Assembly (NCBI RefSeq): GCF_025822765.1
Contig: NZ_JACKUK010000014.1
Span: forward strand, 217,490 to 281,489
Direction: 5' to 3'
DNA length: 64,000 nt
From: Mycobacterium barrassiae
GTDB lineage: Bacteria > Actinomycetota > Actinomycetes > Mycobacteriales > Mycobacteriaceae
Shown: positions 751-23,508 of the stretch, in pieces
How the letters are laid out: every line of letters starts with the position of its first letter
Position numbering within the stretch: the first letter of the stretch is position 1
Translations under genes and position numbers: made by a program
The notes under the pieces: model-generated
What the model saw: the letters and a program-made list of their open reading frames with translations, nothing else
What the model was told of the DNA's origin: nothing
Database searches by the model: none

Positions 751-2178
751 GTGCTCGTGAAAACCTTGAGCCGAAGCCGCACGATCGAGCACTGGGACGC
801 CGAAGACGTCGAGGCATGGGAAGCCGGCGGGAAACGGATCGCCAAGCGCAACCTGATCTGGTCCATTTTCGCCGAGCACGTCGGTTTCTCGGTGTGGTCG
901 ATCTGGTCGGTGATGGTCCTGTTCATGCCGCAGAGCGTTTACCACATCGATGCCGCAGGAAAGTTCTACCTGGTCGCGGTGCCCACCCTGGTCGGCGCCG
1001 TCATGCGCATCCCGTACACCATCGCGCCTGCCAAGTTCGGTGGCCGTAACTGGACGATCGTCAGCGCCCTGCTGCTGCTCATCCCGACGGTCCTCACCCT
1101 CTGGGTGATGAAGAGGCCCGACACGTCCTACACGACGTTCATGGTCGTCGCGGCATTCGCGGGCTTCGGCGGCGGAAACTTCGCCTCCTCGATGACCAAC
1201 ATCAACGCGTTCTACCCGCAGCGCCTCAAGGGCTGGGCGTTGGGTCTGAACGCCGGTGGCGGCAACATCGGCGTTCCGGTGATCCAGCTGATCGGCCTGC
1301 TCGTGATCGCCGCGGTCAGCAACACCGCGCCCGAAATCGTCTGCGCCATCTATCTTGTGCTCATCGCCCTCGCTGCGATCGGTGCCGCACTGTTCATGGA
1401 TAACCTCGGCAACCAGCGCTCGAACCTCGGCGCGATGGCAGAAGCGTTGCGGTTCAAGCACTCCTGGGTGATGAGCTTTCTCTACATCGGCACCTTCGGC
1501 TCGTTCATCGGCTTTTCGTTCGCCTTCGGTCAGGTGCTGCAGATCAACTTCCTCGCCGGGGGAGACACGCCTGCGCAGGCGTCGCTGCACGCCGCCCAGA
1601 TCGCCTTCATCGGACCGCTTCTCGGCTCGATCTCCCGTCCGTTCGGCGGCAAGATCTCCGATCGGATCGGTGGCGGCAAGGTCACGTTGTACACGTTCGT
1701 CGCGATGATCTTCGCCGCGGGAATCCTGGTGGCAGCAGGTGTGATCGACGACGGTATGGCCGGCGCCGCGACGAGCGGCCAGATGATCGCCTACGTCACC
1801 GGCTTCATCCTGCTGTTCATCCTGTCGGGTATCGGCAACGGGTCGACGTACAAGATGATCCCGTCGATCTTCGAGGCCAAGGCCCAGGGCCGCGACGAAT
1901 GGAGCCGCGAGGAGAAGGCGGCGTGGTCACGCAGCATGTCCGGCGCACTCATCGGCTTCGCCGGCGCGATCGGTGCACTGGGCGGCGTGTTCATCAACGT
2001 CGTGTTGCGCGCGTCCTACGTCAGCGATGCCAAGTCCGCGACCAACGCGTTCTGGGTGTTCCTCGGCTTCTACGTGATCTGCGCCATCGTCACCTGGGTG
2101 GTCTTCCTGCGAGTCCACACTGCGCGGGCCGGCGCGGGCGAGCAGATCGGCCGCACACCGGCGCCGGTGCCCGCCTGA
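751..2178 (+). CDS. narK: Nitrate/nitrite transporter of the NNP family (NarK-like MFS)
   Basis: 475 residues beginning at GTG 751, with about 12 hydrophobic segments. The first nitrate-signature loop is visible around residues 137-165 (FAGFGGGNFASSMTN, then LNAGGGNIGVP) and the second near 360 (GIGNGSTYKMIP). Both Gly-rich signatures mark nitrate/nitrite porters rather than sugar or drug MFS proteins. The next gene, a nitrate reductase, follows after only 5 bp, so this protein probably imports nitrate for assimilation. A GTG start is preferred because it precedes the conserved EHWDAEDVEAWEAGG N-terminus. Several mycobacterial NarK paralogues exist, so the symbol marks the family, not a specific orthologue. 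Confidence 0.9.
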   Translation: MLVKTLSRSRTIEHWDAEDVEAWEAGGKRIAKRNLIWSIFAEHVGFSVWSIWSVMVLFMPQSVYHIDAAGKFYLVAVPTLVGAVMRIPYTIAPAKFGGRNWTIVSALLLLIPTVLTLWVMKRPDTSYTTFMVVAAFAGFGGGNFASSMTNINAFYPQRLKGWALGLNAGGGNIGVPVIQLIGLLVIAAVSNTAPEIVCAIYLVLIALAAIGAALFMDNLGNQRSNLGAMAEALRFKHSWVMSFLYIGTFGSFIGFSFAFGQVLQINFLAGGDTPAQASLHAAQIAFIGPLLGSISRPFGGKISDRIGGGKVTLYTFVAMIFAAGILVAAGVIDDGMAGAATSGQMIAYVTGFILLFILSGIGNGSTYKMIPSIFEAKAQGRDEWSREEKAAWSRSMSGALIGFAGAIGALGGVFINVVLRASYVSDAKSATNAFWVFLGFYVICAIVTWVVFLRVHTARAGAGEQIGRTPAPVPA

Positions 2179-2183
2179 CGCCG

Positions 2184-5100
2184 ATGGTGACCCGTACGGC
2201 GTGCTCATACTGCGGTGTCGGCTGCGGTATCGAAGTTCACAGCGTCGTGAGCTCCGATACCGGCCGACCCGTCATCGCCAAGGTCACCGGAGACAAGCTG
2301 CACCCCGCCAACTTCGGCAGGCTGTGCACCAAGGGTGCGACGCACGCCGAGATGATGGCCGCCGACGACGGACGGCTGACCTCCGCACTGAGGCGACCCG
2401 CCCGCGGCGACGAACTGGTGCCCGTACCCGTCGATGACGCGGTCGTCGAGGCGGGTCGACGGCTGCGTGCCATCGTCGACGAGCATGGACCGGACGCCGT
2501 CGCGCTGTACGTATCGGGCCAGATGTCCATCGAGGCGCAGTACCTGGCCACCAAGCTGGCCAAGGGCTTCCTGCGGACCGTGCACATCGAGTCCAACTCA
2601 CGGCTGTGCATGGCAAGCGCCGGAACCGGTTTCAAGCAATCGCTCGGCGCCGACGGCCCACCGGGCTCGTACGCCGACTTCGACTGCACCGACCTGTTTT
2701 TCGTCATCGGTTCGAACATGGCCGACTGCCATCCGATCCTGTACCTGCGCATGGCGGACCGGCTGAAGGCCGGAGCGAAGCTGATCGTCGTCGACCCCCG
2801 CCGGACGGACACCGCCGAACGCGCCGACCTCTTCCTCCAGATCAAGCCCGGCACCGACCTCGCTCTGCTCAACGGACTGCTGCACCTGCTCGTCGAAAAC
2901 GGTGACATCGACAAAGCTTTCATCGCCGAGCACACCAACGGCTGGGACACCATGCCCGCGTTCCTCGCCGACTACACGCCCGAGGTCGTCGCACAGATCA
3001 CCGGCCTTTCCGAATCGGACATCCGCACCGGCGCCCGCATGATCGCCGAGGCCGGCGAGTGGATGAGCTGCTGGACGATGGGCCTCAACCAGAGCACCCA
3101 CGGCACCTGGAACACCAACGCCATCTGCAACCTGCACCTGGCCACCGGCGCGATCTGCCGACCCGGCAGCGGCCCGATGTCACTGACCGGACAGCCCAAT
3201 GCGATGGGCGGCCGCGAAATGGGTTACATGGGGCCGGGACTGCCCGGCCAGCGCTCGGTGCTCTCCGCAGACGACCGCACCTTCGTCGAACAGCAGTGGG
3301 ACCTGGAACCCGGCACCATCCGCCCCGACGTCGGACCGGGCACCATCGACATGTTCGGCCAACTCGCCGACGGACGCATCAAGGCGTGTTGGGTTATCTG
3401 CACCAATCCCGTTGCCACCGTGGCGAATCGGAGCACGGTGATCGCCGGGCTGGAAGCCGCCGAGCTCGTCATCACCCAGGACACCTACCGCAACACCGCA
3501 ACCAACTCGTACGCCGACATCGTGTTGCCCGCGACGCTGTGGGCCGAGGCCGATGCCGTGATGGTGAACTCCGAGCGCAACCTCACGCTGCTCCAGCAGT
3601 CGGTGCCGCCGCTCGGCGCAGCCCGCCCCGACTGGCAGTTGATCTGCCAGGTCGCCGCGCATCTGGGTTATGGCGAGCACTTCGCGTACGAGTCCAGCGA
3701 GCAGATCTTCGACGAAATCCGTCGCTTCTGGAATCCCAAGACCGGCTATGACATTCGCGGCGCGACCTATGCGCGGCTTCGTGAAACCTCGCTGCAGTGG
3801 CCCTGCCCGCCCGACGACGACAACGACCGCCACCCGATCCGCTACCTCAACGACGGCGTCAGCCAGGACTACTTCGTCGACGAGGATGGTCATGCGCCCC
3901 GGCTGGCCTTCGGGACCCCGACGCGGCGCGCCAACTTCTTCGCCCGGCCGCACTTGGACGCTCGCGAGCTGCCCGACGACGACTATCCGCTCGTGCTCAA
4001 TACCGGTCGGCTGCAACACCAGTGGCACACCATGACGAAGACCGGCCTCGTCGACGCGCTCAACCGGCTGAACCGCGGACCGTTCGTGGAGGTCCACCCG
4101 GCCGATGCTGCGGCACTGGACATCTCCAACGGCCAGGACGTCGAGCTCACCACCCGGCGCGGCCGTGCGGTACTTCCCGCGGTGGTGTCCGACCGGGTCC
4201 GCCAGGGCACCTGCTTTGTGCCCTTCCACTGGAACGACGACCACGGCGAGTACCTGGCCGTCAACGCGCTCACCAACGACGCCGTCGACCCCGACTCGCT
4301 GCAACCGGAATTCAAGGCGTGCGCGGTGAGCCTGCGCCCACTGGCCATGCCGGTGCGCGAGACTGCAGTGCTGTCGCGCCCGAACCTCACCGAAGGGCCG
4401 CTGGTCCTGTGGGCGTCACAGACCGGCACCGCCGAGGAGTTCGCGGGCAAGCTCGCCGCCGGCATCGGTGTGCCGAACCTGGTGAACATGAACGATATCG
4501 ACCTCGCCGACCTCGTCGCCCGCGACGTGTTGGTTGTCACCAGCACGTTCGGCGACGGCGGACCGCCCGACAACGGCGCGGAGTTCTGGAACCGTCTCAG
4601 CGCCCCCGACGCCCCGACGTTGACCGGTGTGCGGTACGCGGTTCTCGGTATCGGCGACCGCACCTACGACAACTTCTGCGGCCATGCCAGATCGATCGAC
4701 TCCCGGTTGTCCGCGCTGGGCGCGGCCCGGCTGCTCGACCGTGTCGAATGCGAGGCCTACGACGACGAGCCGATGGGCCGATGGGTCGACCAGGTCGCCG
4801 CGCTGCTGGGTCGCTCGGTGTCCGCGTCGCCCGCGACTGCCGCCGAGCCGTTCACCCGCGCGAATCCGATCGTCGCGCCGCTGAGTCGAAATCTCCTCAT
4901 CAGTGCGCCGTCGGCACGAAAGGAGGTGCGGCAGTTCGGGTTTGACATCTCCGAATTCGACGTCAGCTACTCCGCGGGCGACTCGCTCGGGGTGTTCCCG
5001 ACGAATGACGCGGCCGCCGTCGATGCCTGGCTGACCGCCACCGGGATGCGTGGTGAGCACATCGTCGTGGTCGACGGCACCGAGCAGACCCTGCGGGAAG

Positions 5101-6557: not shown

Positions 6558-6643
6558 TGTCCGAGGGGGGACTTGAACCCCCACGCCCGTTAATAGGGCA
6601 CTAGCACCTCAAGCTAGCGCGTCTGCCATTCCGCCACTCGGAC
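6558..6643 (-). tRNA. tRNA-Leu (anticodon GAG)
   Basis: On the - strand an 86-nt cloverleaf can be folded: acceptor stem GTCCGAG/CTCGGAC with discriminator A, anticodon stem CTAGC/GCTAG enclosing loop TTGAGGT (anticodon GAG), a long class II variable arm (TGCCC..GGGC) and a T arm GGGGGTTCAAGTCCCCC. CCA is not encoded. The long variable arm and GAG anticodon give leucine. The PaiB-like gene starts four bases downstream. Confidence 0.97.
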
Positions 6644-18390: not shown

Positions 18391-18448
18391 GCTGGTTCAA
18401 CGGGGGCTACCGCCCACAGTGCTGGTCCATCGGGCTACCGCCCGAAGC
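18391..18448. repeat. Imperfect tandem duplication over the end of the PAC2 gene
   Basis: Two adjacent units of about 30 bp start GCTGGTTCAACGGGGGCTAC (18391) and GCTGGTCCATCGGGCTAC (18421) and share the CTACCGCCC core. The second unit contains the stop codon and last codons of the PAC2-family gene (on the - strand); the first is a diverged copy just downstream of that stop. Confidence 0.6.
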
Positions 18449-19328
18449 CTGGCCCGCGTCGACGCAGATACCGCTCGAACTCGGCGGCCAGCGCGTCGCC
18501 GTCGATCTTGCCGATCGCCTCATGCATGTCCACCTCGGCGTCGCCACGTTCCTCCAGTGACTGCACGTATTCGGCGATGTCGTCATCCTCGGTGGTCATC
18601 TCGGTGACGGCCATCTCCCACTCTTCGGCCTGCGTCGGCAGGTCGGCGAGCGGCACCTCGATGTCGAGTACGTCTTCGACCCGGCGCAGCAGCGCCACGG
18701 TGGCCTTGGGGTTCGGCGGCTGCGAGACGTAATGGGGCACCGCCGCCCAGAACGTCACCGCCGGGATACCGGCTTGCACACACGCATCCTGGAACACCCC
18801 GGCGATGCCCGTCGGTCCTTCGTACCGCGTCTCCTCCAACCCGAAGACCCTCGCGGATTCGGGGGAGTACGCCGCGCCGGACACCGGCACCGGACGGGTG
18901 TGCGGCGTGTCGGCCAGCAGCGCACCCAGGATGACGACCGTCTGCACGTTGAGCTTGTCGGCGATCGCGAGCAACTCCGCGCAGAAGGTGCGCCAGCGCA
19001 TGTTGGGCTCCACGCCGTGCATCAGCACGATGTCGCGGTTCGATCCCGGCGGCCTGCAGTGCGAAATCCGCATCGACGGCCACACCAACTCCCGGGTCAC
19101 GCCGTCGACCTGCCGAATCACCGGCCGGTTCACCTGATAGTCGTAGTACGCCTCGTCGTCGATCTCGATGATCGGCTCGGCTTCCCAGATCGCGTCCAGG
19201 TGCTCCAGCGCGTCACTGGCCGCGTCACCTGCGTCATTCCAGCCCTCGAAGGCCGCGACGACGATCGTCTCGCTCAGTTTGGGCAGGTCGGGCGGTTTGG
19301 GGTAGCCGCTCGCATCCGACGGGGTCAC
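18435..19328 (-). CDS. PAC2-family protein (Rv2125-type)
   Basis: 297 residues from GTG 19328. The PAC2 (proteasome assembly chaperone 2-like) family is indicated by ETIVVAAFEGWNDAGDAA near residue 20, LMHGVEPNMRWRTF, ALLADTPHTRPVPV and EGPTGIAGVFQDAC, plus an acidic C-terminus ending RRRGPGFGR. Bacterial PAC2 proteins are not proven proteasome chaperones, but proteasome genes do lie about 15 kb away. Cytosolic, no membrane segment. The gene is convergent with the SDR gene and divergent from the metH leader region. Confidence 0.87.
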   Translation of the reverse strand: MTPSDASGYPKPPDLPKLSETIVVAAFEGWNDAGDAASDALEHLDAIWEAEPIIEIDDEAYYDYQVNRPVIRQVDGVTRELVWPSMRISHCRPPGSNRDIVLMHGVEPNMRWRTFCAELLAIADKLNVQTVVILGALLADTPHTRPVPVSGAAYSPESARVFGLEETRYEGPTGIAGVFQDACVQAGIPAVTFWAAVPHYVSQPPNPKATVALLRRVEDVLDIEVPLADLPTQAEEWEMAVTEMTTEDDDIAEYVQSLEERGDAEVDMHEAIGKIDGDALAAEFERYLRRRGPGFGR

Positions 19329-19409
19329 AAGGCCAGCGTAAGCCCTGTATGGCGGCTAGGAGCGGCATCGCCACACGGGTTGATTCGCCAAAACGACTAC
19401 CCTGGCTTT

Positions 19410-19556
19410 GTGACTGTTGTGAACGATCGCACCGACGACGCCGATTTGGTCGGCGCCGCCTCGACGCGGGTCCCGGTGGGCGGTTACAACCAGCTCCTCA
19501 GCGCCACGTATGCCGGCGTGGTCGAAACGAAATACGTTCGGCTGCAATCTGGTTAG
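19410..19556 (+). CDS. Possible 48-residue leaderless small protein
   Basis: An open frame GTG 19410 to TAG 19554-19556 encodes VTVVNDRTDDADLVGAAS then a GGYNQLLSATYAG middle and ends YVRLQSG. About three quarters of third codon positions are G or C, as in real genes here. A TACCCT (-10, TANNNT form) at 19398-19403 places the expected transcript start on the GTG itself, the usual arrangement of mycobacterial leaderless messages. No ribosome site is visible. No family is recognised. It lies between the divergent PAC2 gene and the metH promoter. Could also be chance. Confidence 0.45.
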   Translation: MTVVNDRTDDADLVGAASTRVPVGGYNQLLSATYAGVVETKYVRLQSG

Positions 19557-19658
19557 GCCTGGTGACGACGACTGATCCGACGGGACTCTGCTCTGCAGCG
19601 GGGTCGCTGCCGGTCGCGGCGATGACATGGGCGTCCACACGTCGATCCGAAGACGACG

Positions 19659-19664
19659 TAGACT
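19659..19664 (+). promoter_or_regulatory. Probable metH promoter -10 element (TAGACT)
   Basis: TAGACT fits the mycobacterial TANNNT -10 rule. Seven bases downstream is G19671, which is exactly the first base of the riboswitch's pseudoknot strand, so transcription would begin with the aptamer. No good -35 is seen at the usual spacing, which is common for mycobacterial SigA promoters. The rest of 19557-19658 shows nothing I can name. Confidence 0.5.
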
Positions 19665-19670
19665 TTTCTG

Positions 19671-19757
19671 GTCGAGAGGCGTTGCAACGGTTCCCGGTGA
19701 CAACCGGTGACCGCCACGCTCGGCAGAGACAAGGACGCCTTCCGTTAAGGAAGGAAC
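19671..19757 (+). promoter_or_regulatory. S-adenosylhomocysteine (SAH) riboswitch controlling metH translation
   Basis: The leader folds like the SAH aptamer class. P4 pseudoknot: GTCGAG (19671-19676) with CTCGGC (19719-19724). P1: AGGCGT (19677-19682) with ACGCCT (19735-19740). P2: CGGT (19688-19691)/ACCG (19710-19713) with inner CCGGT/ACCGG (19694-19698/19703-19707). Conserved single-stranded parts TGCAACGG and CCGCCA-GCTCGG resemble the known consensus. The expression platform is visible: CCTTCC (19738-19743) can pair with GGAAGG (19749-19754), which is the metH ribosome site. P1 and this stem share bases 19738-19740, so SAH binding should free the site and turn metH on. Confidence 0.85.
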
Positions 19758-19761
19758 GTAC

Positions 19762-23508
<3,747 letters not shown>

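Follow-up and report, generated by a model that had tools for sequence, protein, structure and literature searches.

A putative SAH-type riboswitch ahead of metH in Mycobacterium barrassiae and many other actinobacteria, with the P4 pseudoknot as the candidate switching helix

The leader of metH in a 64,000-nucleotide stretch of Mycobacterium barrassiae DNA (hereafter the window; contig NZ_JACKUK010000014.1, positions 217,490 to 281,489) appears to consist almost entirely of an SAH-type aptamer. In our reading, to which as a whole we assign a probability of roughly 85%, a riboswitch of the RF01057 kind would bind SAH and thereby open the ribosome binding site of metH, i.e., it would act as a translational ON switch. 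From sequence and its comparison across genomes we infer that SAH is the ligand, that it turns metH on and that control is exerted at translation. SAH is a toxic by-product of methylation, and mycobacteria probably tie methionine synthase to the methylation load in this way. The leader is flanked by an ORF on the minus strand (18435-19328) and the GTG start codon of metH at 19762. The gene itself (19762-23508, plus strand) encodes a B12-dependent methionine synthase of 1248 amino acids, which scores 2165.6 bits against NF007024 (NCBIfam cut-off 1497) and carries the Pfam domains S-methyl_trans, Pterin_bind, B12-binding and Met_synt_B12.

All elements of the aptamer lie on the plus strand. As read from the letters, P1 is formed by GTCGAG (19671-19676) and CTCGGC (19719-19724), and the P4 pseudoknot by AGGCGT (19677-19682) and ACGCCT (19735-19740), which make six Watson-Crick pairs. 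The conserved joining segment TGCAA of the core (19683-19687) equals the RF01057 consensus UGCAA and leads into P2 (19688-19713 with its loop), where CGG (19688-19690) pairs with CCG (19711-19713) around a variable hairpin loop. The strands follow one another as P1-5', P4-5', P2, P1-3', P4-3', which is the order of RF01057, and in the alignment to that family the window element has both the core GCG-Y-UGCAA and the joint CCA-N-GC. The initial annotation of this DNA, which had drawn all three stems and judged the joining bases to fit the SAH class, is borne out in both respects, since the pairs are present in the sequence and in every one of 48 aligned leaders, and core and joint match the RF01057 alignment. 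In some non-mycobacterial relatives TGCGA replaces TGCAA, whereas the parsed mycobacterial leaders retain UGCAA. RNA folding of the leader gave z = -1.96, a value that by itself is not decisive and too weak to serve as an argument. Two oddities were seen among the relatives. Four loci (L269, L270, L280 and L282) have a second GCAACGG in the P2 loop that resembles the adjoining core and looks like a partial duplication of the aptamer. Two others (L106 and L109), with otherwise normal mycobacterial leaders, have 15 inserted bases, the same in both, between P1 and the conserved AAGG.

The RNA would begin roughly where P1 begins. A -10 box, TAGACT, lies at 19659-19664 on the plus strand and predicts a start near 19670-19671; all of 76 leaders have a -10-like box 15-17 nt upstream of the aptamer GAG, with the exact letters TAGACT in 68. 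Since a strict sigma-70 consensus scan of 19560-19860 detected no promoter, it is solely the conserved box that points to this start. The earlier proposal that the promoter start coincides with the first aptamer base agrees with the position of this box.

Against the SAH riboswitch model RF01057, positions 19668-19747 gave a full-length match (model positions 1-78) with 28.4 bits, obtained under permissive settings (E 0.0016 over 341 bases and all 4227 families). This is below the gathering score of the family of 37 bits, which is a curation threshold and not a functional feature. Hence, the covariance search that had been suggested as a check returned the whole aptamer, but under the cut-off. 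The structure line of RF01057 includes P1 and P2 without P4. Other families, RF01727 included, had no match in 19560-19900 at E up to 10, and the sole match in a scan of the window at gathering thresholds was a tRNA gene (6558-6643, minus strand, 54.4 bits). Within its own 5.9-Mb genome, the window element is the top RF01057 match (E 0.0064); with the limit set at E 0.001, no match was obtained. Because none of the 148 sampled genus genomes reaches the gathering score (best 36.6 bits), annotation by the present Rfam cut-off would overlook the regulation of metH in the genus. Seven of 20 relatives do pass the threshold (L242, L264, L277, L283, L287, L297 and L305), and RF01057 matched in 18 of 18 loci tested at an E-value limit of 1. 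At E up to 10, 147 of 148 genus genomes matched but also 9 of 14 controls; this tally was set aside, and the scan served only to show where the fetched loci lie: in 30 of 30 of them (one from each of the best-scoring of the 148 genomes), metH is directly downstream. Some genus genomes have a second RF01057 match that scores like the window element (e.g., 29.3 bits in G084) and by its position is not before their metH.

The SAH element occurs in most of the sampled genus genomes and in many other actinobacteria. A search with the N-terminus of MetH yielded 575 relatives, and the closest 80 were kept, which are hence mostly close kin. In 75 of these best 80 of 575 loci the aptamer motif GAGAGGCGTTGCAA lies 66-153 nt upstream of the MetH match, and each of the 75 can be parsed in full from P1 through the ribosome site. 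The five loci without the aptamer are one whose leader looks decayed (L071), three from Nocardioides (L075, L085 and L090) and one from Jatrophihabitans (L089). A core pattern, GAGNNGCGYTGCRACNGN{4,34}CNGCCANGCTC, which includes neither the P4 3' strand nor the ribosome site, was found in 55 of 401 family genomes (49 of the 52 from the genus, i.e., all except G029, G861 and G897, and six others), in 70 of 384 class genomes (17 of 136 genera) and in 10 of 396 phylum genomes, these samples overlapping one another. The reversed control pattern had no match in the family, phylum and class samples.

A covariance model trained on 27 leaders (R1) finds the element as a single copy in its own genome (95.3 bits), this being the only match above 22 bits. 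The next match, with 21.4 bits (L169, L182), was considered as a second copy and rejected: by eye it looks like coding sequence, and it fails the P1/P2/P4 descriptor. Marginal R1 matches of about 20-28 bits in the family and phylum scans were likewise put to the descriptor, leaving out G266 and G425 in the family and 16 phylum matches, and among the fetched loci that of G169 alone passed. The match in G158 (36.6 bits) passes as well. The descriptor alone is no proof, because it has 18 chance matches in 14.5 Mb of shuffled sequence. Mycobacterium-like metH leaders, together with a mycobacterium-like MetH, were also seen on contigs labelled Bifidobacterium breve and Acidobacteria (L053, L068), which are probably misassigned metagenome bins.

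How well the pairing is kept was assessed in two sets. In 48 of 76 leaders, the window's included, P1, P2 and P4 have standard pairs in 720 of 720 cells; P4 is invariant, and since there is only one pair in which both partners have changed, this set attests conservation rather than covariation. The wider set holds 158 parsed elements, 147 of them unique; the class and family scans contributed 46 of the unique ones from outside the genus. Elements outside the loci found by MetH were selected by a pattern that fixes the core and P2 letters, and the six bases that follow the first AAGG downstream of P1 were taken as the P4 3' strand. Counting G-U as a pair, P4 is perfect in 146 of 147 elements, as against a mean of 117.8 and a maximum of 127 in 1000 shuffles, a contrast inflated by the relatedness of the sequences, as kinship was uncorrected. 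Its last pair is U-A in 104 elements, C-G in 39, U-G in three and a mismatch in one, its first pair A-U in 138 and G-U in nine. P1 pairs perfectly in 145 of 147 elements (at most 142 in the shuffles), and its outer pairs vary between G-C, G-U and A-U and between U-G, C-G and U-A. P2 is invariant, its CGG/CCG being present in 147 of 147 elements, which is in part dictated by the search pattern. P2 and most P4 pairs contribute little covariation because they hardly vary. The covariation in homologous leaders on which the initial annotation had staked its case is nevertheless present across the 147 elements, in P4 and in the stem described next.

The ribosome binding site GGAAGG (19749-19754, plus strand) lies 7 nt before the start codon and can pair with an anti-SD strand, CCTTCC (19738-19743, plus strand), whose first three bases, CCT at 19738-19740, are also the last three of the P4 3' strand. 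The original proposal had the P1 3' strand share bases with CCTTCC, but that strand ends 13 bases short of it, and P1 as the switching helix is ruled out, having no bases in common with the anti-SD strand. What survives of the proposal is the mutual exclusion as such: a helix of the aptamer and the stem that hides the ribosome site do exclude each other, but this helix is P4, through the shared CCT. A stem of at least five pairs, running from the fourth base of the P4 3' strand to the ribosome site, was found in 147 of 147 elements, as compared with a mean of 24.6 and a maximum of 39 when the downstream bases were shuffled. The letters of the two strands change together (CCTTCC/GGAAGG, CCTCCC/GGGAGG, CCTCCG/CGGAGG, TCTCC/GGAGA and others). 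In one locus (L294) a shared base has changed from C to T, and P4 holds as G-U while the anti-SD stem holds as U-A; because both are kept after a change in a shared base, this is the strongest sign that the two exclusive helices are both used. As bare helices, which leave out pseudoknot and ligand, the P4 duplex (-8.3 kcal/mol) and the anti-SD hairpin (-8.6 kcal/mol) of the window are about equal, as a switch requires. We thus seem to be dealing with a bistable RNA, the two exclusive helices of which are both kept across 147 distinct leaders.

The ON direction is inferred from the fact that P4 and the anti-SD stem exclude each other. In the absence of SAH, CCTTCC would pair with GGAAGG, and translation of metH would be low. 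Accumulating SAH would bind the pseudoknotted fold of P1, P2 and P4 and stabilise P4, which would withdraw CCT 19738-19740 from the anti-SD strand and leave no more than three pairs covering the ribosome site. The site would then be free, metH would be translated, and homocysteine derived from SAH could be remethylated to methionine. The class, the metH target and the ON sign, all of them proposed at the outset, are supported by the similarity to the Rfam family, the wide conservation ahead of metH, the covariation of P4 and the anti-SD stem, and the relatives above the threshold.

No terminator-like site was found in 19560-19860, so that the ribosome site remains as the visible output. A closed ribosome site, however, exposes untranslated RNA to Rho, and the same aptamer with the same ligand might control mainly transcription, Rho terminating the untranslated metH message and translation being only an intermediate. 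The scan for intrinsic terminators is silent about Rho, but it is the ribosome site itself, just before the start codon, with which the anti-SD strand has kept its pairing, and we regard a mainly transcriptional output as unlikely. The ligand is a separate matter, as the actinobacterial branch could have kept the fold and drifted to another or a broader ligand, such as SAM, adenosine or a related nucleoside. This would be in line with a core in which three P4 pairs and the joining strand (CCACGC where Rfam has CCAGGC) deviate from the consensus, with the TGCGA of some branches, and with an adenosine deaminase target in two genomes. A change of ligand appears improbable to us, since the pairs that differ in P4 are compensated ones, the parsed mycobacterial leaders retain UGCAA, and ahcY is the gene downstream of one element.

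It could also be asked whether a metabolite is read at all. Conservation and an anti-SD hairpin would, taken alone, fit a leader controlled by a protein or a small RNA just as well, but the full-length alignment to a known aptamer and the seven of 20 relatives above its threshold make such a leader very improbable. That the conservation merely reflects a coding sequence or a promoter deserves hardly any credence: a mechanical ORF of 138 amino acids (19349-19765) does span the leader, but the P2 loop varies from 7 to 34 nt with all three lengths modulo 3 represented (49, 35 and 63 of 147), which argues against coding, and it is the pairing that is kept. A translational ON switch responding to SAH is thus the reading that we retain.

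With respect to the genes controlled, the targets lie in or beside the SAM cycle. Downstream of the element in 47 loci from outside the genus (L175, L196, L242 and L264-L307) are metH in 43 cases, adenosine deaminase in two, ahcY in one and a methyltransferase in one; 41 of the metH calls were made by blastp against the window MetH, and those of L175 and L265 by tblastn or NCBIfam. The two adenosine deaminases score 584.1 bits (L242) and 587.0 bits (L296; cut-off 530 for both), and the elements at 1495-1570 of L242 and at 3744-3818 of L296 (minus strand) directly precede them. These loci belong to genomes of different families (G175 and G1174), and both show the overlap of P4 and the anti-SD strand. 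With adenosine deaminase, the SAH regulon would gain a new type of target. The ahcY gene of L288 scores 573.5 bits (cut-off 497.6), with the element at 1465-1541 on the minus strand. Its start is unusually far downstream of the element, and for this reason the ribosome site may be outside the hairpin. In L196 (genome G169), the element (2264-2340, minus strand) is followed by a gene (1421-2236, minus strand) for a class I SAM-dependent methyltransferase that matches Pfam PF08241 and reaches no NCBIfam cut-off, and then by a flavin-oxidoreductase-like gene.

As to a B12-riboswitch counterpart before metE in the M. barrassiae genome, metE was not located there, and the best B12-type match precedes a membrane protein gene. 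This match is an AdoCbl riboswitch (L112, C17:70477-70602; RF01482, 51.0 bits, cut-off 50), which adjoins a Clp ATPase-like gene and stands before the gene of a 267-amino-acid membrane protein that resembles a cobalt transporter.

The occurrence of the switch appears to follow the type of MetH. The window MetH is about 63% identical to E. coli MetH over the full length and about 33% identical to a Streptomyces plasmid MetH. Among 12 hand-picked genomes, four (G158, G198, G254 and G426) have a strong MetH together with the switch, and the other eight have a MetH of only 36-42% and no switch. Three single genomes were observed in this context: G029 (L188), from the genus, has the distant MetH only and no switch; G426 (L185), from the family, has both types, with the switch only at the close one; and G169 has the distant MetH only, without a switch, its own switch preceding the methyltransferase gene. 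In a tree of 60 N-terminal MetH rows, the rows with the switch form two groups. One (23 rows, 20 with the switch) joins gamma-proteobacterial rows with moderate support (93/96), and the other (17 rows, all with the switch) lies near alpha-proteobacterial rows with weak support (81/90); a third group comprises 12 distant MetH rows, all without the switch. The proportions of switch-bearing rows are not estimates, because rows beyond the MetH-only search, and so most rows with the switch, were selected for having it; proteobacterial sampling was small, with six rows from plasmid records. The 12 distant and eight non-actinobacterial tree loci hold no core pattern and no SAH match at gathering level. 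As the proteobacterial, Deinococcus, Leptospira and plasmid MetH loci have neither the pattern nor an SAH match within their 400-base flanks, no switch-bearing donor was found.

The tree suggests, as a lead, a horizontal transfer of metH with its switch. Taken jointly, we consider it somewhat better than an even bet that the actinobacteria harbor a distinct and widespread branch of SAH riboswitches that is marked by the CCU overlap of P4 and the anti-SD strand, is centred on metH rather than ahcY, and extends to adenosine deaminase. This branch would follow two separate MetH lineages, both of them closer to MetH of proteobacteria than to the distant type seen on Streptomyces and Rhodococcus plasmids, as though gene and switch had travelled together. 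If this were true, SAH would also call up the removal of adenosine, which blocks SAH hydrolysis.

The papers by Wang (2008) and Edwards (2010) are reportedly those of the discovery and the crystal structure of the SAH riboswitch class. According to the available text of PMC7057144, published SAH riboswitches bind SAH at 32 nM, about 1000-fold better than SAM, and raise the expression of ahcY. The initial annotation knew of no studied mycobacterial case that controls metH; the occurrence in mycobacteria is not new, as Sun et al. (2013, PMC3766115, in the part available) state of SAH riboswitches that they "were also identified in Mycobacteriaceae". Those elements are almost certainly the same as the present ones; the main text, as far as available, names no target gene, alignment or mechanism, and the operon lists of the supplements may already name metH. 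The literature searched, which was mostly open and without supplements, contained no experimental study (binding, transcript start, expression) of a mycobacterial SAH riboswitch, no paper that joins an SAH riboswitch to adenosine deaminase, and no account of a metH-centred actinobacterial group with ahcY, adenosine deaminase and methyltransferase targets. Hence, the sensor class is known, its occurrence in the family is foreshadowed, and the novelty is modest; the fresh parts are the P4-based mechanism, the actinobacterial range and the unusual targets. Loss of metH renders M. smegmatis more sensitive to sulfonamide (PMC5070874, available part), and metH therefore matters for mycobacterial folate metabolism.

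Of the known systems, the SAM/SAH riboswitch RF01727 belongs to the same ligand family and likewise forms a pseudoknot (PMC7367207, in the text available), but its fold differs, being an H-type pseudoknot, and its gene is metK in Rhodobacterales (PMC2864571, likewise in part). The elements described here share the order of P1, P2 and P4 and the lengths of the joints with RF01057, which comes from proteobacterial ahcY leaders. They differ from it in P4, where AGGCGU/ACGCCU stands against GAGCGC/GCGCUC in the Rfam consensus, so that three of the six pairs deviate, and since these have changed on both sides, the pairing is kept. They further differ in their usual target, which here is metH, whereas the proteobacterial core comprises ahcY and metF and the presence of metH in the SAH regulon is specific to the Comamonadaceae (PMC4239095, from whose main text, as far as available, the term "adenosine deaminase" is absent).
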